DNA from: Roseibaca calidilacus | Lineage (GTDB): Bacteria > Pseudomonadota > Alphaproteobacteria > Rhodobacterales > Rhodobacteraceae | Direction: 5' to 3' | Assembly: GCF_001517585.1 (NCBI RefSeq) | Contig: NZ_FBYC01000004.1 | Coordinates: forward strand, 2,065,501-2,129,500 | DNA length: 64,000 nt | Part shown: positions 21,384 to 63,992 of the stretch, piece by piece | Layout: each line of letters starts with the position of its first letter | Numbering within the stretch: the stretch's first letter is position 1 | Translations under genes and position numbers: made by a program | The notes under the pieces: generated by a model | Told to the model about the DNA's origin: nothing | The model's database searches: none | The model's input: only the letters and a program-made list of their open reading frames with translations

Positions 21384-23042
21384 CTAGGCTTTCGCCAAGG
21401 CCCGCGCGCCTTCTATGGTCAACCCCGGCGAGAGCGCGTCCGGGTCCAGCACCAATTCGATGACCGCAGGCACACCGGCGTTTAGCGCGCGGTCCAATGC
21501 GGGCGCGAATTCCTCGGTCGCACGCACGCATTCGCCATGCCCACCGTATGCCTGCACCAGCGCCGCATAATCCGGGTTAAAAAGTTGCGTGCCGCTCACC
21601 CGCCCCGGATAAGTCTTTTCCTGATGCATCCGGATCGTGCCATATTGGCCATTGTTGCAAACGATCACCACCACATTCGCCCCGTATTGGCGCGCGGTGG
21701 ACAGCTCGTTCAACGTCATCTGGAAATCGCCATCGCCTGCCACGCAGACCACGGCGCGGTCGGGGTGTTCCAGCTTGGCCGCAATCGAGGCCGGAAAGCC
21801 ATACCCCATGGACCCCGATGTGGGCGCCAAATTGCCGGGAAAGGCCCGGGCGCGGAAATAGCGGTGCAGAAACGCCGCGAAATTGCCCGCGCCATTGGTC
21901 ACGATCGCGTCATCCGGCAGCAGGTCGGACAGACGGCTGAGCACCTGTTCCAGCTTCACATCGCCCGGTGTTTCGCGCGGGGTGATCCAGTCCAGATAGT
22001 CGGCGCGCGCGGATTTGGTCCATGCCGACCAATCAGGCCGCGCGGGCGCGTCGCGGCGGGCCAGCCGCGCCAGCACATCGACCGCGGGTGCCACCAGCCC
22101 CAGATCGGGGCGGAACACGCGGCCAAGCTCATCCGGGTCGGGGTGAATGTGGATGATCGCCTTGCCGGGGGCTGCCGGGTCAACATGCTGGTAACTGCCT
22201 GTCGCAATATCGCCCAGCCGCGCGCCAATGACCAACAGGCAATCAGCGTCTCGCAGGCGCTGACCAAGCTTTGGGTTCATGCCAACCGACAAATCGCCCG
22301 CGTAATTCGGGTGGCGGTTGTCGATCCGGTCCATCCGCCGGAAGGTGGCACACACCGGCAGGCCGAACCCTTCGGCAAAGCGCGCCAAGTCTTGTGCCGC
22401 CTGCGACGACCAGACCGACCCGCCCGCGATAACCAAGGGGCGTTCGGCCCGGCACAGCATGTCCAGAACCGCGTCGATCTGCTCGCCGCAAACAGAGGGC
22501 GGCATGGGGGCGACGGGCGGCAAATCGGGCACATCGGCGCGCGCCGATAGCATGTTTTCGGGCAGCGCCAGCACCACCGGGCCGGGGCGGCCCGATTGCG
22601 CAACATGAAAGGCACGGCTGATATATTCGGGCAATCGGTCGGTCTGGTCCACTTCTGCCGCCCATTTGGCAAGCGGCCCGAATACAGCGCGGTAATCGAC
22701 CTCTTGGAATGCCTCGCGGTCGCGGTGGCGCGTGTCGATCTGCCCCACGAACAAGATAAGCGGCGTCGAATCCTGCTTGGCCACATGAATGCCGCTTGAC
22801 CCGTTCGTGGCCCCCGGCCCGCGCGTGACAAAGGCAACGCCCGGCTGCCCGGTCAGCTTGGCATGGGCTTCGGCCATCATCACGGCCCCACCTTCGTGGC
22901 GGCAGACGATGTTCTCGATGCCCGACTCGTGCAGCCCGTCCAGCGCCGCCAGAAAACTTTCGCCTGGCACGGAAAACACCCGCCGCACGCCTTGCGCTTT
23001 CAACTGGTCCACAAGAATCTGTCCGCCATGGCGTAGGGTCAT
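21384..23042 (-). CDS. Thiamine pyrophosphate-dependent enzyme, acetolactate synthase-like
   Basis: This 552-residue protein has the three-domain TPP enzyme layout. The N-terminal PYR domain has the catalytic Glu in NIVCRHEGGAVMMAEAHAKLTG. The central domain follows, and the PP domain binds Mg-TPP through GDGDFQMTLNELSTARQYGANVVVIVCNN. It is annotated generically because relatives include acetolactate synthase, benzoylformate decarboxylase and others. It lacks an adjacent ilvN regulatory subunit, so it is probably not the biosynthetic acetohydroxyacid synthase. GGAG lies 8 bases before the ATG. It is convergent with gap and divergent from the FMN reductase. Confidence 0.85.
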   Translation of the reverse strand: MTLRHGGQILVDQLKAQGVRRVFSVPGESFLAALDGLHESGIENIVCRHEGGAVMMAEAHAKLTGQPGVAFVTRGPGATNGSSGIHVAKQDSTPLILFVGQIDTRHRDREAFQEVDYRAVFGPLAKWAAEVDQTDRLPEYISRAFHVAQSGRPGPVVLALPENMLSARADVPDLPPVAPMPPSVCGEQIDAVLDMLCRAERPLVIAGGSVWSSQAAQDLARFAEGFGLPVCATFRRMDRIDNRHPNYAGDLSVGMNPKLGQRLRDADCLLVIGARLGDIATGSYQHVDPAAPGKAIIHIHPDPDELGRVFRPDLGLVAPAVDVLARLARRDAPARPDWSAWTKSARADYLDWITPRETPGDVKLEQVLSRLSDLLPDDAIVTNGAGNFAAFLHRYFRARAFPGNLAPTSGSMGYGFPASIAAKLEHPDRAVVCVAGDGDFQMTLNELSTARQYGANVVVIVCNNGQYGTIRMHQEKTYPGRVSGTQLFNPDYAALVQAYGGHGECVRATEEFAPALDRALNAGVPAVIELVLDPDALSPGLTIEGARALAKA

Positions 23043-51473: not shown

Positions 51474-52490
51474 CTAGCCTTGGATGGGGTGGAAGGCCAG
51501 CAACAGCGCCATGGCCAAACCCAGCAGCACCAGCGTTTCGACCACGACAATCGCCATATGCCCCGGCCCAACCGCAGCAAGTGCTTTCAGCGAGGTTTTG
51601 ACGCCCAATGCCGCAATCGCGGTTACAAGGCAGACACGGGACAGGGTGTTGACCTGCTCGACCAAGATCACAGGTAATTCCACCACGCTGCCCAAACCAA
51701 CAAGCGCCAGAAACAGCACCATGAACCATGGCAAAAGCGCCACGCGCCCGGTGCCCTGCCCTGCCCCGCTGGCGCGCAGCACCAGCCCGATCACGATCAG
51801 CACCACAGGCAGCATGGCCACCCGAAACAGCTTGGTGATGGTCGCGGTTTCGCCTGCCGTATCGGACACCGTAAAGCCCGCGCCAACGACCTGCGCCACG
51901 TCATGGATGGTGGCCCCGATCAGGAAACCCTGTTCCACCTCGGTAAAGCCCAAGCCGCCGAACAGCAGTGGGTAAAGGACCATGGCGATGGTCGACAGCG
52001 CGGTCACGGCCATGACCGTAAACAGCGTATTGCGTTCGGTCTTGTCATTATGCGGGATGACGGCGGCAATGGCCAAAGCGGCAGAGGCCCCGCAAATCGC
52101 CACCGCCCCACCCGTCAGCAACGCAAAGCGCCATTGCCGCTTGAACAAAGGGGCCGCAATGAACCCGGTGGCAATGGTGGCCGCGATCAGCCCGACCAAA
52201 AGCGCCGCGCCGGACAGCCCGATCTGCGCCATATCGTCCAGCGCAATTCGGATCCCCAGCAACCCCACCCCCAGCCGCAACACGAATTTCGCGGCAAAAT
52301 CAACGCCCGGACCACAAGGGCCGTCCGTGTGCATGAAGTTGAACGCCATCCCCAGCAGCAGCGCGAACAGCATGACCGGCGCACCGTAATGCGCGCCAAG
52401 GAAACTGGCCGCCGCGGCGATGGTGGCGCTTAGCATCAGCCCCGGCAGAAGCGGCTTTGCACGGGCGGTCAGGTCGGTCAGCTTGGGCAT
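51474..52490 (-). CDS. suyZ: YeiH/SuyZ-family sulfate (sulfite) exporter
   Basis: This 338-residue multi-helix membrane protein of PF03601 (UPF0324, 'putative sulfate exporter') has about ten hydrophobic segments. Family blocks are GMAFNFM, LRLGVGLLGIRIAL, GGAVAICGASAALAIAAVIP, IGATIHDVAQVVGAG and GVKTSLKAL. In Paracoccus pantotrophus the homologue SuyZ adjoins suyAB and is proposed to export the sulfur anion released from sulfolactate. The same linkage is seen here, across a terminator. It could instead be a general YeiH; linkage to suyAB is the reason for the symbol. Confidence 0.75.
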   Translation of the reverse strand: MPKLTDLTARAKPLLPGLMLSATIAAAASFLGAHYGAPVMLFALLLGMAFNFMHTDGPCGPGVDFAAKFVLRLGVGLLGIRIALDDMAQIGLSGAALLVGLIAATIATGFIAAPLFKRQWRFALLTGGAVAICGASAALAIAAVIPHNDKTERNTLFTVMAVTALSTIAMVLYPLLFGGLGFTEVEQGFLIGATIHDVAQVVGAGFTVSDTAGETATITKLFRVAMLPVVLIVIGLVLRASGAGQGTGRVALLPWFMVLFLALVGLGSVVELPVILVEQVNTLSRVCLVTAIAALGVKTSLKALAAVGPGHMAIVVVETLVLLGLAMALLLAFHPIQG

Positions 52491-52505
52491 GGTGGTCTTT
52501 CGCAT

Positions 52506-52535
52506 AAAAAAGGGGCGCACGAATCTGCGCGCCCC
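52506..52535 (-). terminator. Rho-independent terminator after suyB
   Basis: On the minus strand GGGGCGC (52535-52529) and GCGCCCC (52518-52512) form a 7-base stem with a 10-base loop, followed by six T residues (52511-52506). It stands 19 bases after the suyB stop and 15 bases before the suyZ start, so suyZ expression depends on read-through or its own promoter. Confidence 0.85.
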
Positions 52536-52553
52536 CATTTGGTTTTGCCCCGA

Positions 52554-53735
52554 TCAGGCCGAGCGGTAAAGCTTGGTCATCGAGAATTCGCGGTGGCCCA
52601 GCGCCTCGGCGCAGGTCAGGCGGCCATTGGCGGTGCGCTTTATCATCTCGATCAGGCTGTCACCCGCCTGGTCGATGGTCATGTCGCGCCGCAACACACC
52701 GGTCACATCCACGTCAATATGTTCGGACATGGTGCGCAGGGTGCGCGGGTTGCCCGATATCTTGATAACCGGCACAATCGGGTTGCCAACCACGTTGCCC
52801 TGCCCCGTGGGGAAGGTGTGGATGACATAGCCCGCCGCCGCCATCAGCGTCACGCATTCCGCCGCGGCCGATGACGTGTCCATGAAATACAGCCCCGCGC
52901 CCTTGGCCGGTGCCTCTGCCGGTTCCAGCACGTCAATATAGGTGCTGGTGCGGCCAATTTTCTCAAGGTTGCCCAGCGCCTTTTCCTCAATAGTCGAAAG
53001 GCCGCCCAGAATATTGCCCTTGGTCGGCTGGCTGTCGGACAGATCAGAGGTCTTGAACTGTTCGATCACGTCATCGGTATAGGCCTGCCATGTTTTCATG
53101 AACTTGGCCGCCGCTTCCGGATTCGCTGCGCGCTTCTCGCAGATATGTTCCGCCCCGGTGATTTCCGAGGTTTCGCCGAACACGCCATACAACCCATGCG
53201 GCAGCAGCTTGTCATACATGTTGCCAACCGTGGGGCAGGAGGACAGGCCGGTGGTGGTGTCGGATTCGCCGCATTTGGTGGACACCCACAGATCGGTCAC
53301 GGGGCAGTCTTCTTTCTGAAGCTCTGTCGCCCATTGAACGTATTCCTTGGCCTTCCAGCTTGCCCGGCGGATGGTCTCGAAATCGCCGTTCTGTTCAATC
53401 CAGAACCCTTCGACCGGCTTGCCGGTCTTGGCAATGCCATCAACGATGATCTTGGTCCATTCCGGTTCAATCCCGATGACGACCACAGCCGCCACATTGG
53501 GGTTGGCCCCGGTGCCGATGATGGTGCGGAAATGCAGGTCCAGATCCTCTCCGAACTGCAAGCGCCCATAAGCGTGCGGAATGGCCATGGTGCCCTTGAC
53601 GTTATTGGCCACAGCTTCACAGGCCGCGTTGGAAATGTCATCCACCGGCAGGATCAGGACGTGGTTGCGCACACCCACACGGCCGTTTTCACGGCGCCAT
53701 GCCTTGACCGTATCTTGAGAAAAATCGAATGCCAT
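52554..53735 (-). CDS. suyB: (2R)-3-sulfolactate sulfo-lyase, beta subunit (UxaA-family large subunit)
   Basis: This 393-residue protein is the large part of the altronate dehydratase (UxaA) family, here split from the small SAF subunit as in SuyAB. Motifs include [86 protein letters not shown] and [21 protein letters not shown]. With SuyA it cleaves sulfolactate to pyruvate and sulfite. The split organisation, the adjacent suyZ and hpsN homologues, and the sequence of the partner favour SuyB over altronate or galactarate dehydratase. Confidence 0.82.
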
Positions 53736-53747
53736 GGTCGGTCCCCC

Positions 53748-54044
53748 TTACCAGCGCTTGGTTTTCATGTTGTGGGTGTGGACATGGCCGCCAATCTCGG
53801 CGCTGCCCACCATGCGGCCAATATCTTCACCGTATTTGATAACGGTGTCGCCCTCGGCCAGATCCTTCAGCGCAACCTTGTGACCGATGGGAATATCGGC
53901 CTTGGCGGTCAGGCGGAAATCAGAGTTATCCTCGGTGCAGACGCATAGCATGTCGGTGCCGGCGGTCAGCCCCTCGACCACGACAACGCCGACATTGTCG
54001 ACCTTGTCATGGACAAGCAATTGGGGGTGGGTGTTTGCGGTCAT
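53748..54044 (-). CDS. suyA: (2R)-3-sulfolactate sulfo-lyase, alpha subunit (SAF domain)
   Basis: This 98-residue SAF-domain protein is homologous to the N-terminal part of altronate dehydratase. The body reads DNVGVVVVEGLTAGTDMLCV, NSDFRLTAKADIPIGHKVAL, GDTVIKYGEDIGRMVG and the C-terminal GGHVHTHNMKTKRW. That tail is very close to what I recall of Paracoccus SuyA. It works with SuyB, whose start is 12 bases downstream. The comC-like gene ends upstream, so order is comC-suyA-suyB. Confidence 0.82.
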   Translation of the reverse strand: MTANTHPQLLVHDKVDNVGVVVVEGLTAGTDMLCVCTEDNSDFRLTAKADIPIGHKVALKDLAEGDTVIKYGEDIGRMVGSAEIGGHVHTHNMKTKRW

Positions 54045-54071
54045 GTCCTCTCTCCCTTTTAGATGAGGTGT

Positions 54072-55100
54072 CTAGCCACGGGCGAGGCCCGTGAGCGTGT
54101 CGTAAAGCTGTTGCGAAATCTCGATCTGCGCGGCGCGGGCGGCGCGGTCCGCCATGCGGCGGGCACCGGGCAGGCGCGCGCTGTCCTGTGCCTCTATCGC
54201 GGTGAACATGGCTTCGGCCCGGTCCGTGAAACCGGGGCCAAAGCGCGCAGGGTCCAGCACCAGCATGAAATGCGCAAGATTCGGGGCTGGCCCTTTGTCA
54301 TCGAAGAGCGAGCTGGCCTGATAGGCGAAATGCGCACCCGCAAGCCCTGCGGTCAGCAATTCCACCATCAGCGCGAGCGCCGCGCCCTTGGCCCCACCCG
54401 ACGGCACCATCGTGCCCGCCATAGCGGCATCGGCATCTGTGGTCGGGTTGCCATCCACATCCAGCGCCCAGCCTTCGGGAATGGGTTGGCCCGCCTTTTG
54501 CGCCAGCATCACCTTGCCGCGCGCGACATGGCTTAGCGACAGGTCAATCAGCAGCGGATCGCCCTGCGCGCGGGGCGCGGCAAAGGCGATGGGATTCGTG
54601 CCATAAAGCGGTTTGTTGCCGCCCCAAGGGGCCATGGCAGCGGGTGCATTGGCGAAGGCCAGCGCGATCAACCCTTCGCGGGCGAAAGGTTCCACCGCCT
54701 GCCCGGCCACCCCGAAATGGTGCGACCGCGTCACGCTGACCACGGCCACGCCCAACTCGCGCACCACATCGCGCGCGGCCAGGGCAGCAGCGTCGATCGC
54801 GGCAAAGGCCAGCCCGAACCCTGCATCCACCCGGATGACCGCGCCGTCGCGTGTGACGGTCGGGGCCGCATCCGCCACCACCTTCCCCGTCACCATTTGC
54901 GCAGCATAAAACGGCGCGCGGGCCAACCCATGCGAGGGCAACCCCTCTTGCTCTGCCATGACCAGGGCGCGCGCTGCGTGCTCGGCCAGAGGCGCGGGCA
55001 TTCCTGCTTTGCCGAACACGTCAACCACCAACTGGCGCGCATCTACAAGGCTGATCGTGGTGGTTGCCATGGAGGATCGGTCCGATTCTGGTGCTGTCAT
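54072..55100 (-). CDS. comC: Ldh-family (malate/lactate/sulfolactate) dehydrogenase, ComC-like
   Basis: This 342-residue NAD(P)-dependent 2-hydroxyacid dehydrogenase is of the type 2 malate/L-lactate family. The start region VDARQLVVDVFGKAGMPAPLAEHAARALV and SRSHHFGVAGQAVEPFAREGLIALAFANAP are typical, as are GTNPIAFAAP and MVPSGGAKGAALALMVELLTAGLAGA. Archaeal ComC and Chromohalobacter ComC oxidise (R)-sulfolactate to sulfopyruvate. Here it precedes suyAB on the same strand. Substrate is inferred from context only, and no SlcC partner is visible. Two starts are possible; the upstream ATG with GAGAGA ahead is used. Confidence 0.7.
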   Translation of the reverse strand: MTAPESDRSSMATTTISLVDARQLVVDVFGKAGMPAPLAEHAARALVMAEQEGLPSHGLARAPFYAAQMVTGKVVADAAPTVTRDGAVIRVDAGFGLAFAAIDAAALAARDVVRELGVAVVSVTRSHHFGVAGQAVEPFAREGLIALAFANAPAAMAPWGGNKPLYGTNPIAFAAPRAQGDPLLIDLSLSHVARGKVMLAQKAGQPIPEGWALDVDGNPTTDADAAMAGTMVPSGGAKGAALALMVELLTAGLAGAHFAYQASSLFDDKGPAPNLAHFMLVLDPARFGPGFTDRAEAMFTAIEAQDSARLPGARRMADRAARAAQIEISQQLYDTLTGLARG

Positions 55101-55118
55101 TCTCTCGCTTCACTTCTA

Positions 55119-55130
55119 TATAGTTTATAT
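55119..55130 (+). promoter_or_regulatory. Shared operator-like word, copy 1 (gntR-comC divergent region)
   Basis: TATAGTTTATAT lies inside ATATA-GTT-TATAT, a 5-base inverted repeat, between the comC-like gene (minus) and gntR (plus). An identical 12-mer occurs at 62891-62902. It is an AT-rich word in a GC-rich genome and stands 19 bases from the comC start codon. Confidence 0.65.
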
Positions 55131-55222
55131 GATAAAGTAAGGTCAATGCCCTTACCGCTTTCCCGTTGGGTTTTCCGATTTTTACGGGTAAATACATGAA
55201 ATCGTTTTATTCGGAGGTGTCC

Positions 55223-55942
55223 ATGTCCCTGCGCCCAGTATCCCAGCCGCTTCACCAGCAGTTGCGCGATCTTATGCTGGCACGCATCGAATCCGGCGAA
55301 TGGTCGCCGGGCACTTTTCTGCCGTCCGAAACACGGCTGGCAGAGGAATACGGCGTCGCGGTTGGCACCCTGCGCAAGGCGCTCTTGGACATGGCTGCCG
55401 AAGGGCTGGTGCAACGCAGGCAGGGCAAAGGCACGGTTGTGTCCAGCCACGACAGCGACGCAGTGCTGTTTCGCTTCTTCAACCTGCGCCGCGTCGATGG
55501 CACCACCTTTCACCCCGAAAGCCGGGTGCTGGACCGCGCGCGCCGCACGGCCACCCCAGAGGAAGCCGCCGCTCTGGGTCTGGCCACGGGGGCCGACATC
55601 CTCTGCATCACCCGCGTGCGCGATGGCGACGGGGTGCCGCTGATTTATGAACAGATCGTGCTGGATGCCGCGCGCTTCGGCAGCTTGCTGGCAACGCCCG
55701 ACCCTCTGCCAAACACGTTGTATCAGCTATACCAGACCGAATTCGGCGCAAGCGTGTTTCGCGCCTTGGAACAGGTCACGGCTTGTGCGGTAGATGCCGA
55801 TTGCGCGCGTGAATTGGGGCTGGCGGCAGGCACCCCCATTCTGCGCGTGCACCGGGTTGCGGTAGATTATAACGGTGCACCGCTGGAATTGCGTGTGTCC
55901 TACATCAACACCGGCGCTGTGCATTACCATGCCGAAGTCTGA
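55223..55942 (+). CDS. GntR-family transcriptional regulator (HutC/UTRA type)
   Basis: This 239-residue regulator has an N-terminal winged helix ([42 protein letters not shown], about residues 8-70) and a C-terminal UTRA ligand domain ([26 protein letters not shown] and [24 protein letters not shown]). GGAGGTG ahead of MSLRP sets the start. It is divergent from comC-suyAB and very likely senses a sulfonate intermediate such as sulfolactate. Operators of this family are often TATA-containing palindromes, consistent with the word at 55119. Its end overlaps the next gene by 14 bases. Confidence 0.88.
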
Positions 55943-56393
55943 TCCGATCATCTATGTCGATGCAGACGCCTGCCCGGTCAAATCAGAGGTCGAGCGCGTC
56001 GGCACAAGGCACCGGGCGCGCATGGTGATCGTCTCGAACGGCGGGATACGCCCGTCGCAAAACCCGCTGGTGGACACTGTGATCGTCAGCGCAGGTGCCG
56101 ATGAGGCCGACAAATGGATCGCGGATCGCGCCGGGCCGGGGGACATCGTGGTCACGTCCGACATTCCGCTGGCCGCCAAATGCGTGGCGGCGGGCGCGCA
56201 GGTTTTGCGCCATGACGGGTCGGAATTGTCAGAAGCCAATATCGGCAGCGTGTTGGCCACGCGCGACCTGATGGCTGATGTGCGCGCCGCCGACCCGTTC
56301 CACCAAGGGCGCGGGCGCAGCTTTTCCAAGGCCGACCGCGCGCGGTTTCTGGACGGTCTGGAGCGGGCCATGCAACGGGCCAAACGTGCCTGA
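55929..56393 (+). CDS. YaiI/YqxD family protein (DUF188)
   Basis: This 154-residue NYN-like protein of the UPF0178/DUF188 family has the opening [19 protein letters not shown], with acidic residues like PIN/NYN nucleases. [20 protein letters not shown] and [17 protein letters not shown] complete the family pattern. The function is unproven; a nuclease role is suggested by fold. It overlaps the end of gntR by 14 bases. This is likely a chance compact pairing, since no sulfonate role is known. Confidence 0.88.
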
Positions 56394-56399
56394 GCCACC

Positions 56400-57389
56400 T
56401 CAGACAACTTGCAATACGATCTTGGCCGCATTCACGCGGCCTGCGTCCAGATCGGCAAAGGCTTGCGCGCCCTCATCCAGCGCGCGAGTTTCGACCCAGC
56501 CCAACGCGCCCAAGGCCCCTGCCCCAAGGGCTGCCAAGGCATCGGCAAAGTCTTGCGGCGTGTAGCAATAAGACCCTGTCACGCAGATCTCCTGTAGCGT
56601 GATGCGGCGAATGTCATAGCCCTCTTGCCCCGGCAGCAGGCCCACATGCACGATCACCCCGCCGGGCCGTACTAGGCGCGATGCATCGGCGCGGGTGGCC
56701 GCAGCGCCCACCGCGTCAATCACCAGATCGAAGGCATCTGCGCCGGGGTCATGGCTGGTGGGGTCGAACGTCTTGATCCCCGCTTCCGGCGCAAGGGTCG
56801 CGCGGCGGCCTGCATGGGGTTCGGCCACATGAATGCTGGCCGCACCCATATGCCGCGCAACCAAAGCCGCGGCCACGCCAATTGCACCCGCGCCTTGCAC
56901 CAGCACGCGCGGCTCCGTTTGCCCCAGCCGTTCCAACCCGATCCGCATGGCGTGCCACGACACGGCGACGGGTTCGGCCAGCGCAGCGTCACGCATCGAC
57001 AGGCCATCGGGAATGGGCAGCAGGTTGCGTTCGGGGATGGTGACATAATCCGCGAAAGCGCCGGGGCGCGGCGGCATGGAGATGATCGCGCGGCTGGGCG
57101 ACAGATGCGGGCGGCCCGCTTTCACCGCCGGGCAATCGGGGTCCACCACCAGCGGGTTTATCGCCACCGCCTGCCCCTTGCGGGGGCCGTCTGCGACGAT
57201 CCCTGCCGCCTCATGCCCCAGCACCAAGGGCGCGGGGCGGCGGTCGTCATGCCCGTGATACGCGTGCATGTCGGACCCGCAAATGCCCACGGCATGAACC
57301 GCGACCAGAACCTCGCCCGCCGCAGGCACCGGCGCGGGCAGGTCGGTCAATTCCATCTGGTTCGGCCCGGTATAGAGTAACGCGCGCAT
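56400..57389 (-). CDS. Zinc-dependent alcohol dehydrogenase (HpsP-like position)
   Basis: This 329-residue medium-chain dehydrogenase has catalytic zinc ligands Cys37 (GICGSDMHAYHGH) and His59-Glu60 (GHEAAGIV), and the Rossmann motif VLVQGAGAIGVAAALVARHMG. The structural-zinc loop that normally has four cysteines at spacing C-x2-C-x2-C-x7-C reads D83, C86, V89, S97, so that site is lost. It is the last gene of the TRAP-hpsN operon, next to an SDR. In Cupriavidus and Roseovarius such a pair (HpsO, HpsP) interconverts DHPS enantiomers; this role is by context. Confidence 0.8.
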   Translation of the reverse strand: MRALLYTGPNQMELTDLPAPVPAAGEVLVAVHAVGICGSDMHAYHGHDDRRPAPLVLGHEAAGIVADGPRKGQAVAINPLVVDPDCPAVKAGRPHLSPSRAIISMPPRPGAFADYVTIPERNLLPIPDGLSMRDAALAEPVAVSWHAMRIGLERLGQTEPRVLVQGAGAIGVAAALVARHMGAASIHVAEPHAGRRATLAPEAGIKTFDPTSHDPGADAFDLVIDAVGAAATRADASRLVRPGGVIVHVGLLPGQEGYDIRRITLQEICVTGSYCYTPQDFADALAALGAGALGALGWVETRALDEGAQAFADLDAGRVNAAKIVLQVV

Positions 57390-57398
57390 GGTCTGTCC

Positions 57399-58153
57399 TT
57401 ATTTCGCAGTAAAGCCGCCATCGACGAAAAGCGTCTGCCCGGTAATGTATCCCGACGCGTCCGAGCATAGGAACACAGTCGCCCCGTGCAGGTCTTCCAG
57501 CGTGCCATTGCGCCCGATCGCCGTGCGCGCGGCATTTGCGGCAGCCAGATCCGGGTTGCCAAAGACAGGTGCTGTCAGCGGTGTGGGGAAAAACCCCGGC
57601 GCGATCGCGTTGCAGGTGATGCCTTGGCCCGAGAATTCCTCTGCCATGGCGCGGGTCAGTTGCACAACGCCCCCTTTGGCCGCCCCATAGGGCGCGGAAT
57701 TGGCGAAGGCACGCACCGATTGCAGGGACGCGATGTTCAGCACCCGCCCCCAACCGCGCGCAGCCATACCCGGCGCCAAATGCTGCACCAGCAAGAACGG
57801 CGCGCGCAGGTGCAGCGCCATGTGCAAATCGAACGCCTCTGCCGTGACCTGCGCGTAAGGTTCGCGCAGGTTGACCCCGGCGGCATTCACCAGAATGTCC
57901 ACCTCGCCCGCCGCGTCGGCCAGCCCCGCCAGCGCGGCAGGGTCGGCCAGATCGGTTGGGTGGGCGCTGGCCGCGATACCGTCAGCGGCCAGTTCCGCCA
58001 CCGCCGCATCCAGCTTATCGGGCGCGCGGGCAGCAAGGACGACCGATGCCCCGGCCAACCCCAATGCGCGCGCCATAGCCAGACCGATGCCGGAATTTCC
58101 GCCCGTCACCAACGCGCGCCGACCACTCAGGTCGAACAAATGCGCCAGACGCA

Positions 58154-58154
<1 letters not shown>
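57399..58154 (-). CDS. SDR-family oxidoreductase (HpsO-like position)
   Basis: This 251-residue classical short-chain dehydrogenase has the cofactor motif TGGNSGIG (17-24) and NNAG-like NAAG at 90-93. The catalytic triad is Ser143, Tyr156 and Lys160 (YGAAKGGV). It overlaps the hpsN start region by one base and precedes the zinc alcohol dehydrogenase by 10 bases. It probably oxidises the secondary hydroxyl of DHPS (HpsO role), though gluconate 5-dehydrogenase-like enzymes look similar. Confidence 0.82.
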
Positions 58155-60834
<2,680 letters not shown>

Positions 60835-60844
60835 AGCGGCCCCC

Positions 60845-61351
60845 TCAGTCGAACAGTTTTTCGCCGGTGAATGGCGGCTCATCGCGGCGCAGCGTGCCGA
60901 TGTCGCGCCAGATGGATTGCAGCAATCGCGCCGTGACCATGCTGAAGCCTATCGGTACCGCCAGCAGGAAATAGACCTTCGACACGCGCAGCCCGTCAGT
61001 AACGGACCCAAACCGCATAGAGGTGTCGACCGCGTGCCACGACCAGATGACGACGGCCACCGCCACCGCCAGCATGATCAGGTCGCCCAACAGATACAGC
61101 AGCGTCTGCGCGCGGTGCGGCAGCGCGTGAAAAATCACGTCAATGCGGATATGTGCGCGGTCCTTGATCGCTGCCGAAGCCCCGATCCAGACAAGGTAGA
61201 TAAAGGAATACCGCACCAGTTCTTCGCCCCAGATAGACGAATAGGACAGAACTTCGCGGCGGATCACCTCGACCACCATGGTGGTGACAAGCAGGATGTA
61301 GAAGAAAAGCAATGCCCAGCGTTCAGCATTGCGGTCCAATGCGCGCAGCAT
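60845..61351 (-). CDS. TRAP transporter small permease (DctQ type, HpsL-like)
   Basis: This 168-residue protein has four membrane helices and the family block EELVRYSFIYLVWIGASAAIKDRAHIRIDV at about residues 43-72. It pairs with DctM. AAGGGA lies before the ATG, and the gap from dctP contains a 10-base hairpin. Confidence 0.9.
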   Translation of the reverse strand: MLRALDRNAERWALLFFYILLVTTMVVEVIRREVLSYSSIWGEELVRYSFIYLVWIGASAAIKDRAHIRIDVIFHALPHRAQTLLYLLGDLIMLAVAVAVVIWSWHAVDTSMRFGSVTDGLRVSKVYFLLAVPIGFSMVTARLLQSIWRDIGTLRRDEPPFTGEKLFD

Positions 61352-61392
61352 GGCCGGTCCCTTTCGGTCGGTATCTGGTCAGATAAGGCGCA

Positions 61393-61416
61393 CCGCCGGG
61401 CCAGATGGCCCGGCGG
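61393..61416 (-). promoter_or_regulatory. Strong hairpin between dctP and dctQ
   Basis: CCGCCGGGCC-AGAT-GGCCCGGCGG is a perfect 10-base stem with a tetraloop in the dctP-dctQ spacer, 12 bases after the dctP stop. It lacks a T-tract. It stands where the dppA-dppB hairpin stands, after a binding protein gene. Confidence 0.72.
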
Positions 61417-61427
61417 GCAACAGGCCT

Positions 61428-62582
61428 TTAGGCGTCATCCACCGGAATACCGGCATAGGTCTCGGCCGCTTCGGCCAGCCCGTTGAACGTGTCCATGTCG
61501 CCTGCGAGTTCCATTTTGAAACTGTCCCACTCGCTGCGCTGGTAGCCCACGGTTTCGCGCCATTCGTTCAGCTGGTCTTCGCTCAGGCTGTGGAATTGCA
61601 CGCCCGCCTTGCGCATTTCGGCCATGGCGTAGTTGCGCGCCGAAGGCACCTTGGCAAGGTTCTGCATCATGGTGATGCGGCCTGCTTCCTCGATTCCGTC
61701 TTGGACATCGGAGGGCATGGAATTGAACCATTCAAGGTTCATCGAATAAACTTGGCTGTCCGGCACCGGCTGGTTGAAAGTGACATGGCTGAGGAGGTCG
61801 CGGAAGCCAAACACGTTCAACGCGCCCACGGACGGGTCAAGCGCATCGGCTACACCCTGTGTGATCGCCGACGGCGTTTCGCCCCAAGCAACCGGCGTCG
61901 GGTTCGCACCCGCCATCGAGTAATATTGCTGCAACATCAGCGAACCGGGGACGCGGAATTTCACGCCACGCAGGTCGGACGGCACCAAAGCAGGGTTTTC
62001 GATTCCCTTGCGCAGGGCAACCACACGCGGGTCGATGACAATGTAGAACAGGGGCTTGAAGCCGCGCTCTTCGACCTTGGGGTGAACGTTATTGATCCAG
62101 GCTTCCGAATTCACAAGGTTCACGAAACGCTGGTTCGACCCGCACAGATAGGGAAGGTTGATCAGGTCCGTGACAGGCGCAAAAGGCGCAAAGTTGGCAA
62201 GCGAGTGCTGCGCGCATTGAATTGCGCCATTCTGCACGCCGCTGACCAGTTCACCCTCCGACCCAAGCTGACCGCCCGGCGCCAGCCGGACATAGACCTT
62301 GCCGTTGGTGGCGTTCTGGATGTTTTCCTTTAGATCCAACTGCATGATCGGATAGCTGCGGGTCGCGCCAAGCACATAGGCGGTGGCAATGGTCATGACA
62401 TGCTCTGCTGCAGCCTGACGCTCGCGTTCTTCAGCGGCGGTTTGCGCTGCCGCCTCGGACGACCACAGCGTGCCCGCGGCCCCCGCAACCACGGCGGCGG
62501 TAAAGCTGCCCGTGGTGGCAAGCTTCAGGAAATTGCGCCGCTCTGCGCTTTGCAGTTCTGTCCGTGTTGTCTTATCCGTCAT
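61428..62582 (-). CDS. TRAP substrate-binding protein (DctP type, HpsK-like)
   Basis: This 384-residue periplasmic protein has a twin-arginine signal (SAERRNFLKLATTGSFTAAVVAGAAGTLWSSEAAA). A DctP domain follows: GGQLGSEGELVSGVQNGAIQCAQ, with GVKFRVPGSLMLQQYYSMAGANPTPVAWGET the substrate-site helix. Its conserved Arg (FRVPG) usually binds a carboxylate or sulfonate. Tat export is common in TRAP binders of this group. GGAGGAG is near the ATG. It likely binds DHPS or sulfolactate. Confidence 0.9.
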   Translation of the reverse strand: MTDKTTRTELQSAERRNFLKLATTGSFTAAVVAGAAGTLWSSEAAAQTAAEERERQAAAEHVMTIATAYVLGATRSYPIMQLDLKENIQNATNGKVYVRLAPGGQLGSEGELVSGVQNGAIQCAQHSLANFAPFAPVTDLINLPYLCGSNQRFVNLVNSEAWINNVHPKVEERGFKPLFYIVIDPRVVALRKGIENPALVPSDLRGVKFRVPGSLMLQQYYSMAGANPTPVAWGETPSAITQGVADALDPSVGALNVFGFRDLLSHVTFNQPVPDSQVYSMNLEWFNSMPSDVQDGIEEAGRITMMQNLAKVPSARNYAMAEMRKAGVQFHSLSEDQLNEWRETVGYQRSEWDSFKMELAGDMDTFNGLAEAAETYAGIPVDDA

Positions 62583-62607
62583 GACCTGTCTCCTCCCTAG
62601 ATGTTGG

Positions 62608-62805
62608 TCAGTTCTTCTTGCGCTTGCGCGCTTCACGCCCAAGGCTGCCAGCGGCAAAGCAAAGCACCGAAATGGCTAGCAAAATTGCTTCCATGCGAAC
62701 ATTCAGGATCGGGCTGCGCGTGCTGGCGGCATAGATCACATGCCCGAAATACCCCGAAAACAGCACCAAGGATGCCAGCAAAGCCAGATTTTCCCATCGT
62801 GACAT
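62608..62805 (-). CDS. Small two-helix membrane protein at head of the TRAP operon
   Basis: A 65-residue protein with two hydrophobic stretches (LALLASLVLFSGYFGHVIYAA and AILLAISVLCFAAGSLG) and a basic end REARKRKKN. GGAGAGG 6-7 bases ahead of MSRWENLAL supports translation. A longer frame beginning upstream is possible. It starts the operon of the TRAP transporter and precedes dctP by 25 bases. I recognise no family. It may be a transporter accessory peptide or assembly factor. Confidence 0.6.
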   Translation of the reverse strand: MSRWENLALLASLVLFSGYFGHVIYAASTRSPILNVRMEAILLAISVLCFAAGSLGREARKRKKN

Positions 62806-62846
62806 GACGCCTCTCCCCATGCGTTTCATGCAAGCCTCAGGGCTTT

Positions 62847-62860
62847 TGTAAACGCTTACA
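62847..62860. promoter_or_regulatory. LacI-type operator 1
   Basis: TGTAAACGCTTACA is a 14-base palindrome with one mismatch and the central CG typical of LacI/GalR operators. It lies 42 bases before the small membrane-protein ATG on the minus strand, so it probably covers the TRAP operon promoter. Confidence 0.75.
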
Positions 62861-62890
62861 TAGGCAACGGCGCGAGTCAAATCATTTCTG

Positions 62891-62902
62891 TATAGTTTAT
62901 AT
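62891..62902 (+). promoter_or_regulatory. Shared operator-like word, copy 2 (lacI-TRAP divergent region)
   Basis: TATAGTTTATAT, identical to 55119-55130; the 15-base context CT(A/G)TATAGTTTATAT matches at 14 positions. It sits between the two LacI-type palindromes, in the divergent region of the TRAP operon and the LacI-type gene. Confidence 0.65.
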
Positions 62903-62934
62903 AAAATAATTGAACGCGCAGAGGCGAACGTGCT

Positions 62935-62949
62935 ATGTAAAATTTACAT
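62935..62949. promoter_or_regulatory. LacI-type operator 2 before the regulator gene
   Basis: ATGTAAA-A-TTTACAT is a perfect 15-base palindrome, similar in its TGTAAA/TTTACA arms to operator 1 but lacking the CG centre. It ends 14 bases before the regulator's ATG, where it would give autorepression. Confidence 0.6.
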
Positions 62950-62963
62950 TCCACACAGAACAC

Positions 62964-63992
62964 ATGACAAAACGCACCAAACCCACGCTGATCGACATTG
63001 CCGCCGCTTGCGATACATCCATCGCCACTGTTTCGCGTGCCTTGTCGAAACCGGGCCTTGTGCAGCCCGAAACGCTGGAGCGCGTGCGCAGGGTTGCCGC
63101 CAGCATGGGCTATGTGCCCAACCGCCGCGCACGCGCGCTTGTGTCGGGGCGGTCGAACACGGTGGGTGTGGCGGTGCCAACCCTTGCCAGCCCGGTCTTT
63201 TCGGCGACATTACAAGAAATGCAGAAAACGCTGTCGGCCAATGGCTACCAGTTGCTGATCGCTTCGCATGAATACGACCCTGCGGCAGAGGCGGCCGCCT
63301 TGTCGCAACTTATCTCGCACGGGGTGGATGCGCTTGTGGTGGTGGGGGGCGCGCGCCCGCAAACCACATGGGCTTTGATCGACAGCGCCGAATTGCCCTT
63401 GGTGCAGCTTTGGGAAGGGCGCGAGGGCTTTGACCGCGTGTTAGTGGACAATCATCACGCCGGGGAATTGGCCGCGCAGCACCTACTGGACCTTGGGCAT
63501 TGCCGCCTTGGCGTGATTTGTGGCGACATGGCGATCAACGACCGGCAAGCGGCGCGGGTGGCGGGCATTCGTGCTGCACTGGCACGCGCGGGGCTGGATT
63601 TGCCGGATGCGCTGGTTTCAGAACAGCCCCCCAATGTCATGGCCGGGCGCAGCGGTTGCGCCGCAATTCTTGAGCAGGCCGCGCGCCCCACTGCCATCAT
63701 CGGCACCATGGACCTGCTGGCCATGGGCGCGATGTTGGAAGCGCAGGCGCGCGGCATTGCGGTGCCGAGGGCCTTGTCTTTCATCGGGATCGACAATATC
63801 GACGTCAGCGCACATCTGTCCCCGGCCCTGACCACGGTGGACATACCCGCAACCCGGATCGGTGCCGAAGCCGCCGCCATGGTGTTGCGGCGGCTAAGCG
63901 GACAGGTCACGGAATGTGAACGGCTGGTGTTGCCGGTCATCCCGGTCATCCGCGCCTCTACGGCCGCCTACCCCATACGTTCAGACGCATAA
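62964..63992 (+). CDS. LacI-family transcriptional regulator
   Basis: This 342-residue regulator has an N-terminal LacI helix-turn-helix and hinge (LIDIAAACDTSIATVSRALSKPG at 9-31, then YVPNRRARALVSG). The periplasmic-binding-like sensor follows (NTVGVAVPTLASPVFSATLQEMQ, GVDALVVVGG and GTMDLLAMGAMLEAQARGI). It stands divergent from the TRAP-hpsN operon and two LacI-type palindromes lie between, so it very likely represses that operon. The inducer is presumably DHPS or a product. The regulator JMP134 uses differs in family as I recall, so this is a separate arrangement. Confidence 0.9.
   Translation: MTKRTKPTLIDIAAACDTSIATVSRALSKPGLVQPETLERVRRVAASMGYVPNRRARALVSGRSNTVGVAVPTLASPVFSATLQEMQKTLSANGYQLLIASHEYDPAAEAAALSQLISHGVDALVVVGGARPQTTWALIDSAELPLVQLWEGREGFDRVLVDNHHAGELAAQHLLDLGHCRLGVICGDMAINDRQAARVAGIRAALARAGLDLPDALVSEQPPNVMAGRSGCAAILEQAARPTAIIGTMDLLAMGAMLEAQARGIAVPRALSFIGIDNIDVSAHLSPALTTVDIPATRIGAEAAAMVLRRLSGQVTECERLVLPVIPVIRASTAAYPIRSDA

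Follow-up and report, generated by a model that had tools for sequence, protein, structure and literature searches.

The stretch of Roseibaca calidilacus DNA considered here (the window, all 64,000 nucleotides of C4:2065501-2129500, from a genome of 3.35 Mb in 4 contigs) carries at its positions 51474-63992 a 12-gene hps/suy locus, which was recognized from the list of open reading frames (ORFs) and from family model scans of the window. We conclude, with a probability of about 0.9, that this locus and other genes of the same genome represent a pathway for the degradation of 2,3-dihydroxypropane-1-sulfonate (DHPS) and sulfolactate. Loci of this kind are already well known; PMC11131964 speaks of 609 genomes with hpsO, hpsP, and hpsN. 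The new part, our analysis suggests, is a regulatory lead that links three operons, which is also the part that a specialist might not expect. With the locus itself, one more genome, a Roseibaca-like one, can be counted among those of bacteria for which DHPS and sulfolactate are predicted carbon sources.

In the pathway as we envision it, DHPS, an algal sulfur compound, would be imported by a TRAP transporter, after which HpsN would turn (R)-DHPS into (R)-sulfolactate by a single four-electron oxidation, while HpsO and HpsP would convert (R)-DHPS and (S)-DHPS, respectively, to sulfolactaldehyde. SuyAB would then split (R)-sulfolactate into pyruvate and sulfite, and a YeiH-type carrier would export the sulfur anion. 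The (S) branch would pass through an aldehyde dehydrogenase encoded elsewhere in the genome (there are several candidates) and then through an SlcC-like enzyme and the local ComC-type enzyme, which together would racemize sulfolactate by way of sulfopyruvate; a SoeABC-like enzyme (C4:2452-2457 kb) may oxidize the sulfite. Two regulators would govern the system: a LacI-family protein acting at TGTAAGCGTTTACA in the promoter for DHPS uptake, and a GntR/UTRA protein acting at ATATAAACTATATAG in three promoters, those of comC-suyABZ, TRAP-hpsNOP, and an unlinked tctC-tctA-tctB-slcC operon. The gene identities are read from the sequence, and from them we infer the activities, the directions of the reactions, and the pairing of regulators with operators. 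The genes in question are as follows, with the basis of each assignment and protein lengths in amino acids (aa).

51474-52538, minus strand: suyZ-type exporter of the YeiH family (sulfite/sulfate), 354 aa; PF03601
52554-53735, minus strand: suyB, predicted large subunit of (R)-sulfolactate sulfo-lyase, 393 aa; identity and tree
53748-54044, minus strand: suyA, predicted small subunit, 98 aa; identity to same-position proteins
54072-55100, minus strand: comC-type dehydrogenase of the Ldh_2 family, predicted (R)-sulfolactate dehydrogenase, 342 aa; PF02615
55166-55942, plus strand: GntR/UTRA regulator, divergent from comC, likely start ATG at 55223; PF00392 and PF07702
56400-57389, minus strand: hpsP, predicted (S)-DHPS dehydrogenase, a zinc alcohol dehydrogenase, 329 aa; match to 8wwd and residues
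57399-58154, minus strand: hpsO, predicted (R)-DHPS dehydrogenase, a short-chain dehydrogenase/reductase (SDR), 251 aa; matches to 8wwf and 9pvq and residues
58154-59470, minus strand: hpsN, predicted (R)-DHPS 3-dehydrogenase of the HisD fold, 438 aa; match to 8v35, GRYAH, and residues
59506-60882, minus strand: hpsM-type large TRAP permease (DctM), the listed start being possibly too early; TIGR00786
60845-61351, minus strand: hpsL-type small TRAP permease (DctQ); 58.3% identity to Paracoccus seriniphilus
61428-62657, minus strand: hpsK-type TRAP solute-binding protein (DctP); PF03480 and 24gc
62910-63992, plus strand: lacI-family regulator, HpsR-type, likely start ATG at 62964; PF00356

Transcription on the minus strand runs from the genes for DctP, DctQ, DctM, the HisD-fold protein, the SDR, and the zinc alcohol dehydrogenase, past the plus-strand gntR gene and a YaiI-like gene, to those for the Ldh_2 protein, the short and long UxaA-type proteins, and the YeiH-type carrier, with the lacI gene lying divergently at the right end. 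All of the genes named in the first-pass annotation, the two regulators included, were found where it had placed them, as judged by the ORF list and the family models. Each of the 14 window ORFs used as queries was present in two further Roseibaca loci (L007 and L009), and a third (L008) has 10 of them, up to the end of its contig; the gene run is therefore not due to chance. An ORF of 780 aa that appears mechanically at 58154-60496 is an out-of-frame extension of hpsN across dctM.

The product of 58154-59470 is predicted to be HpsN and to oxidize (R)-DHPS with NAD+. Among solved structures it matched 8v35 ("Sulfopropanediol 3-dehydrogenase") with 685.9 bits and 8wwe ("(R)-DHPS dehydrogenase") with 467.7 bits, and its best match to a histidinol dehydrogenase structure scored 261.8 bits. 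It is 69.5% identical to HpsN of Cupriavidus pinatubonensis HN-2, 59.6% identical to the P. seriniphilus protein, and 37.9% identical to the genome's own HisD, which is encoded elsewhere and is, with HpsN, one of only two PF00815 matches in the genome. The motif that separates the two kinds of enzyme is GRY-A/S-H in HpsN and GSAPL in HisD, and His126 of the C. pinatubonensis enzyme (CpHpsN) is found in HpsN only (PMC11382572). The window protein has GRYAH at residues 123-127, a motif without counterpart in the genome's HisD. Likewise, the catalytic and zinc- or substrate-contacting residues of CpHpsN (E318, H319, D352, K353, Q248, H251, and H411; PMC11382572) appear in the alignment, with the numbering shifted by +1, as E319, H320, D353, K354, Q249, H252, and H412. 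In a 23-row tree the protein is placed within the HpsN rows, together with those from Roseibaca and further members of the Rhodobacteraceae; the tree was midpoint-rooted with the two HisD rows on long branches on the opposite side, so its rooting is unsure, and a long-branched HisD-like row from Aminobacter, which lacks the motif, attaches to the HpsN side, a type of join that may be false. The identities, the motif, and the tree thus agree with the first-pass annotation in setting the protein apart from genuine HisD, an identity that we rejected in view of the separate HisD and the GRYAH motif.

The two other dehydrogenases for DHPS can be read in a similar way. HpsO matched 8wwf with 258.1 bits and 9pvq with 310.2 bits, and its S143, Q145, Y156, and K160 align with S145, Q147, Y158, and K162 of 8wwf (RpHpsO), while HpsP matched 8wwd with 360.9 bits and retains H59, E60, and E139 at identical positions. 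Mutagenesis has shown the importance of the Ser, Tyr, and Lys residues of HpsO, of its chirality-reading Gln147, which recognizes (R)-DHPS, and of H59, E60, and E139 of DsHpsP (PMC11131964). The same source describes HpsO as the (R)-DHPS and HpsP as the (S)-DHPS dehydrogenase, both yielding sulfolactaldehyde, which is then oxidized by GabD-2. Identity to the C. pinatubonensis proteins is 63.9% for HpsO and 45.7% for HpsP. The window HpsP lacks the full cysteine set of the structural metal lobe of zinc alcohol dehydrogenases (VVDPDCPAVKAGRPHLSP versus TCGTCPAC...NLC in 8wwd), its catalytic residues being kept; in a comparison of 11 proteins the set was also incomplete in L007, L008, L009, L011, L013, L027, and L036 and was kept in L060, P. 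seriniphilus, and C. pinatubonensis.

As to uptake, residues 72-408 of the solute-binding protein matched 24gc, deposited as "Dihydroxypropanesulfonate (DHPS) TRAP transporter," with 563.9 bits (E 1.6e-168), the next structure being an isethionate-binding protein at 74.2 bits. We therefore predict that the HpsKLM solute-binding protein is of the DHPS-binding type. DctM scored 298.8 bits against TIGR00786, above its cut-off, and is 74.4% identical to the P. seriniphilus protein. In Ruegeria pomeroyi hpsKLM corresponds to SPO0591-0593, beside hpsR (a lacI-family gene, SPO0590), hpsN, hpsO, and hpsP (PMC4334477), and a mutant of SPO0591 grew poorly on DHPS (PMC10130141).

The UxaA-type pair consists of separate short and long chains, SuyA and SuyB, predicted to form a sulfite-releasing (R)-sulfolactate sulfo-lyase. 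SuyB is 89.8% identical to its P. seriniphilus counterpart and 66.2% identical to that of C. pinatubonensis HN-2, as compared with 30.7% for UxaA of Escherichia coli and 31.4% for GarD, and in a 12-row tree its neighbors are the proteins found at the SuyB position in C. pinatubonensis and Paracoccus rather than UxaA or GarD; the SuyAB proteins used for comparison are named by cluster context and not by assay in those strains. It is the sole PF20629 match of the genome and reached 127.7 bits with the galactarate dehydratase model, the cut-off of which is 730.85. SuyA is 82.1% identical to the P. seriniphilus protein and 45.2% identical to the same-position protein of C. pinatubonensis; the galactarate dehydratase model weakly matches its N-terminal part (35.7 bits), no Pfam family was found for it at E 0.01, and a search with PF08666 at E 0.001 missed it. 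The pair thus clusters with SuyB-position proteins, as the first-pass annotation had proposed, and a function as altronate or galactarate dehydratase was rejected at 31% identity.

Could the HisD-like protein, the SDR, and the alcohol dehydrogenase instead serve histidinol or sugar-acid metabolism, as enzymes of the gluconate, sorbitol, or threonine dehydrogenase type, with the UxaA-like pair being a sugar-acid dehydratase? The hisD model TIGR00069 does score over its cut-off (the gluconate 5-dehydrogenase and threonine dehydrogenase models stay below theirs), and public plasmid records label most of the relatives histidinol dehydrogenase and UxaA hydrolase. We nevertheless hold this to be very improbable, since the discriminating residues checked in HpsN, HpsO, and HpsP are all kept, the genome has its separate HisD, SuyB is at 31% identity to UxaA and GarD and at 66% to the protein of the Cupriavidus hps-suy cluster, and the solute-binding protein matches one for DHPS. 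Because the plasmid records mostly carry these labels, such residues matter for annotation. The identities and trees of HpsN and SuyB and the match to 24gc thus support a predicted locus for uptake, oxidation, cleavage, and export of the kind first envisaged for this DNA.

The assignments of comC and suyZ are less direct. The best NCBIfam match of the Ldh_2 protein is the L-sulfolactate dehydrogenase model NF040650 (185.9 bits). The protein is the only PF02615 match in the genome, shares 51.4% identity with the Ldh whose gene adjoins the SlcC-position gene in P. seriniphilus, and is encoded by the first gene of the suy operon. The YeiH-type carrier scored 202.6 bits against PF03601, above the cut-off, and is 50.8% identical to a "putative sulfate exporter" in the P. 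seriniphilus locus. Several observations weigh against so specific an interpretation of these genes. The 185.9 bits of the ComC-type protein fall short of the equivalog cut-off of 500 for NF040650, and the solved structure that it matches best is of another enzyme than sulfolactate dehydrogenase (1wtj at 205 bits, versus 2x06 at 137.6 bits), so that the name ComC rests mainly on context. The carrier lies below the cut-off of TIGR00698 (141.7 versus 232.6 bits), and no SuyAB model was among the matches in library scans of the window proteins. The predicted roles of ComC, SuyAB, and SuyZ accordingly draw on homology and context.

For the ComC-type protein another function may be considered, namely that of a different member of the Ldh_2 family, such as a delta1-piperideine-2-carboxylate reductase or a ureidoglycolate dehydrogenase. 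Those are the activities of 1wtj, which comes ahead of the L-sulfolactate dehydrogenase 2x06, and the unmet cut-off points the same way. We consider this improbable all the same, given that the gene opens the suy operon, that the sulfolactate model is the top NCBIfam match, and that this model, at 186 bits, is also the best match of the Ldh next to the SlcC-position gene in P. seriniphilus.

The first-pass annotation had called the locus putatively complete, a description that suits the genome at best and not the window. SuyAB is described as acting on (R)-sulfolactate (PMC11131964, PMC6018796), so the (S) branch needs both SlcC and ComC, and the locus, having neither slcC nor a gene for sulfolactaldehyde dehydrogenase, is not complete for both DHPS enantiomers. 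An SlcC-like 2-hydroxyacid dehydrogenase is encoded at C4:1767705-1768601, about 350 kb from the locus, as the last gene of a tctC-tctA-tctB-slcC operon at C4:1767.7-1771.7 kb (the TctB-like product being a 150-aa ORF). It shares 57% identity with the protein at the SlcC position in P. seriniphilus, to which the next protein of the genome by score is 34% identical, and TctC and TctA are 41.7% and 48.5% identical to their counterparts in the P. seriniphilus locus; we predict it to be an (S)-sulfolactate dehydrogenase, the Paracoccus reference being SlcC by context only. For sulfolactaldehyde, ten aldehyde dehydrogenases matching TIGR01780, one of them over the cut-off, are candidates.

With respect to sulfite, it had been noted that no sulfite dehydrogenase gene was in view, and indeed none was recognized among the ORFs listed at 48-64 kb, no search having been aimed at SorA-type sulfite oxidases. 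A SoeABC-like operon lies at about C4:2452187-2456830 and encodes a 945-aa molybdopterin protein, an Fe-S protein, and a DmsC-like protein (the genome's only PF04976 match); against this, SoeABC is named here by gene order and family only, no NCBIfam cut-off is reached, and other enzymes share this build. Thus the genome, rather than the window, looks complete, with sulfolactaldehyde dehydrogenase to be sought among ten candidates and Soe recognized by build. A route from sulfopyruvate through Xsc was rejected, as the two matches to TIGR03457 scored 277.6 and 244.8 bits against a cut-off of 676.4. The weaker of these is an ORF in the window at 21438-23018, which probably encodes another thiamine-diphosphate enzyme.

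We now turn to the regulatory sequences, which are listed here.

55116-55130, minus strand: predicted GntR box ATATAAACTATATAG in the comC-suyABZ promoter, with TATATA 18 nucleotides behind TTGACC
62888-62902, minus strand: second GntR box ATATAAACTATACAG in the TRAP-hpsNOP promoter region, recognized by the shared 12-mer
62847-62860, no strand given: LacI-type operator-like site TGTAAACGCTTACA (reverse complement TGTAAGCGTTTACA), matching TGTAA[AG]CG[CT]TTACA
62935-62949, no strand given: palindrome ATGTAAAATTTACAT by the lacI start, a possible second LacI site, of which TGTAAAATTTACA is also present in L007, L008, and L009

The 12-mer TATAGTTTATAT occurs exactly in both promoter regions (55119-55130 and 62891-62902), a match within two mismatches being expected by chance 0.11 times in the window, and these are its only perfect copies in the 3.35-Mb genome (control, 0). 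A near copy of the box lies in the same orientation 57 bp before the start of tctC; the slcC operon had been found by homology alone, and the near copy was noticed there afterwards. A genome search with ATATAAACTATATAG at up to two mismatches, for which the pattern was taken from the comC-suy site after the other two sites were known, returned four matches: comC-suy (0 mismatches), tct-slcC (1), TRAP-hps (1), and the ruvC-ruvA region (2), and none for the reversed-pattern control. The core TATAAACTAT was found in nine of the 84 fetched loci (L007-L090), upstream of comC/suyAB, and all nine are among the 11 loci with a GntR protein at least 60% identical to that of the window. On the TRAP side, TAAACTATA is present in the window, L007, L008, and L009. 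In the Roseibaca loci the box occurs at the TRAP-hps promoter, whereas related Rhodobacteraceae without TRAP genes have it at no promoter but that of suy, and the DHPS operon would therefore have been recruited later.

On balance we favor the view, held with some reserve, that the GntR/UTRA protein is the master switch of a sulfonate regulon that acts through ATATAAACTATATAG, the DHPS operon having been recruited into an older sulfolactate regulon. The predicted regulon consists of three operons, for DHPS uptake and oxidation, for sulfolactate cleavage, and, unlinked to these, for sulfolactate uptake and epimerization. The simple reading of the box is that of a repressor site overlapping the promoter. 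Telling against such a regulon are the fourth match, in a region with no known link to the pathway; L008, which has no box on the suy side (divergence of the sequence sets in before the end of the contig); L025, which has the variant TTTAAACTATATAG; and 17 further loci with a LacI protein 58-69% identical to that of the window, in which the TRAP-side box was not found around the lacI start.

A further difficulty is the position of the box. At the comC/suyA promoters of the window and 10 relatives, L025 included, its TATATA or TATACA stands 17-18 nucleotides behind a TTGAC-type hexamer; the box therefore covers the likely -10, and part of its conservation could be conservation of the promoter. 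Carried to its end, this argument makes the box a conserved sigma-70 -10 region and not an operator, with GntR controlling some other target or the suy operon only. We think this unlikely, though it deserves to be taken seriously: the 3.35-Mb genome has only two copies of the 12-mer and three of the 15-mer at up to one mismatch, every one of them at the pathway; the conserved block extends from the -10 into the spacer (TAAAC); the TRAP-side copy has, by eye, no clear -35 at that spacing; and of the 84 loci, only ones that have the close gntR gene contain the 10-mer core, with the reservation that the suy region, too, is missing from many of the rest. We thus retain the three-operon regulon as the preferred interpretation. 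The operator-like sequence is directly testable, and in this genome it also marks the unlinked slcC/Tct operon; if true elsewhere, the box could complete pathway calls in which "missing" steps are merely unlinked.

The other regulator may have a site of its own, as the element TGTAA[AG]CG[CT]TTACA fits a candidate operator for LacI/HpsR. In the window taken by itself such a site is not rare, which counts against it: 12 of 100 shuffles have at least one match within two mismatches. The exact element, however, is present in 10 of the 84 loci and also in Leisingera L125. In L007-L009, P. seriniphilus, and Leisingera it is found in the interval that separates lacI from the TRAP genes, and in L056, L068, L082, L083, and L086 about 30 bp before hpsN; L082 has a second copy, and in L066 the site is distant from hpsN. 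The hps genes are flanked by lacI-family genes in C. pinatubonensis, P. seriniphilus, and R. pomeroyi (SPO0590, hpsR). In the literature searched we found no description of the GntR box or of the LacI-type site, subscription papers lying outside the search, so that absence is unproven; PMC6018796 names a regulator, suyR, and a putative importer, SlcHFG, with no operator in the passages seen.

How does the locus compare with known systems? For its distribution we kept the best 80 of 527 confirmed HpsN loci, many of which are clipped by contig ends, so that the counts are lower bounds. Within these 80, hpsO and hpsP were matched in at least 72 and suyB, within the fetched stretch, in at least 23, while a DctP at least 60% identical to that of the window was found in five (L007, L008, L009, L040, and L054). 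The nearest named HpsN loci are those of Roseibaca, L007-L009, at 97%, 95%, and 95% identity. Other close Rhodobacteraceae have no TRAP genes in the gap between lacI and hpsN, some with lacI directly before hpsN and others with about 4 kb between. SuyB was found at E 1e-100 or better in 38 of the 198 Rhodobacteraceae-family genomes examined, our own counted. A literature search on Roseibaca and sulfonate found no paper.

Like the hpsRNOUP-suyAB cluster of C. pinatubonensis (order from PMC11382572), compared here in plasmid p2 of strain HN-2, the locus brings together a LacI-type regulator, HpsN, HpsO, HpsP, and SuyAB; the C. pinatubonensis cluster differs in having a major facilitator superfamily importer in place of TRAP, and the annotation of the 19 kb of p2 that were compared lists neither an Ldh nor a YeiH-type exporter nor a GntR gene. 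With hpsRKLMNOPQ-slcD of R. pomeroyi DSS-3 (SPO0590-0598) it shares the order LacI, TRAP (KLM), HpsN, HpsO, HpsP, but there a UspA protein and the membrane-bound SlcD follow and comC is elsewhere (SPO3187), whereas here gntR-comC-suyAB-suyZ follows (PMC4334477). By structure match, HpsN of the window is closer to the Cupriavidus-type 8v35 (685.9 bits) than to 8wwe (467.7 bits), presumably the protein of R. pomeroyi. Outside the Roseibaca loci, the architecture that we observed to agree most fully is that on plasmid p420573 of P. seriniphilus, which shares LacI, a small ORF, TRAP, HpsN, HpsO, HpsP, GntR, and SuyAB, followed by Ldh and an exporter; there the locus itself includes the Tct transporter genes and the SlcC-position gene, which here form a separate operon. 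In Paracoccus wurundjeri, and in Chromohalobacter as cited there, SlcC/ComC-SuyAB similarly joins a sulfolactate racemase of two dehydrogenases to SuyAB; that module is fed by sulfofucose degradation (PMC12421959), the present one by the DHPS dehydrogenases. That sulfolactate modules can be accompanied by a tripartite importer and by a regulator of their own is known already (PMC6018796). On pTAV3 of Paracoccus versutus (L089), genes for pyruvate carboxylase, transhydrogenase, and sulfite oxidase follow SuyAB and the exporter genes, and ABC transporter genes stand where other loci have TRAP; transhydrogenase genes come after suyAB in C. pinatubonensis (L087) as well.

Finally, two small genes of the locus fall outside the pathway as drawn.

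about 55944-56393, plus strand: presumed YaiI/DUF188-like gene between gntR and hpsP
62608-62880, minus strand: small membrane ORF between lacI and hpsK, likely ATG start at 62805; ORF list

The former, presumably YaiI/DUF188-like, has no evident role in the pathway and was matched only in the Roseibaca loci L007-L009 among the 84 (L007-L090), as if inserted. The latter has company in that Paracoccus, Leisingera, and Rhodovulum, too, have small annotated ORFs at this place, and because of these same-place ORFs we suggest a possible accessory role for it in DHPS transport.

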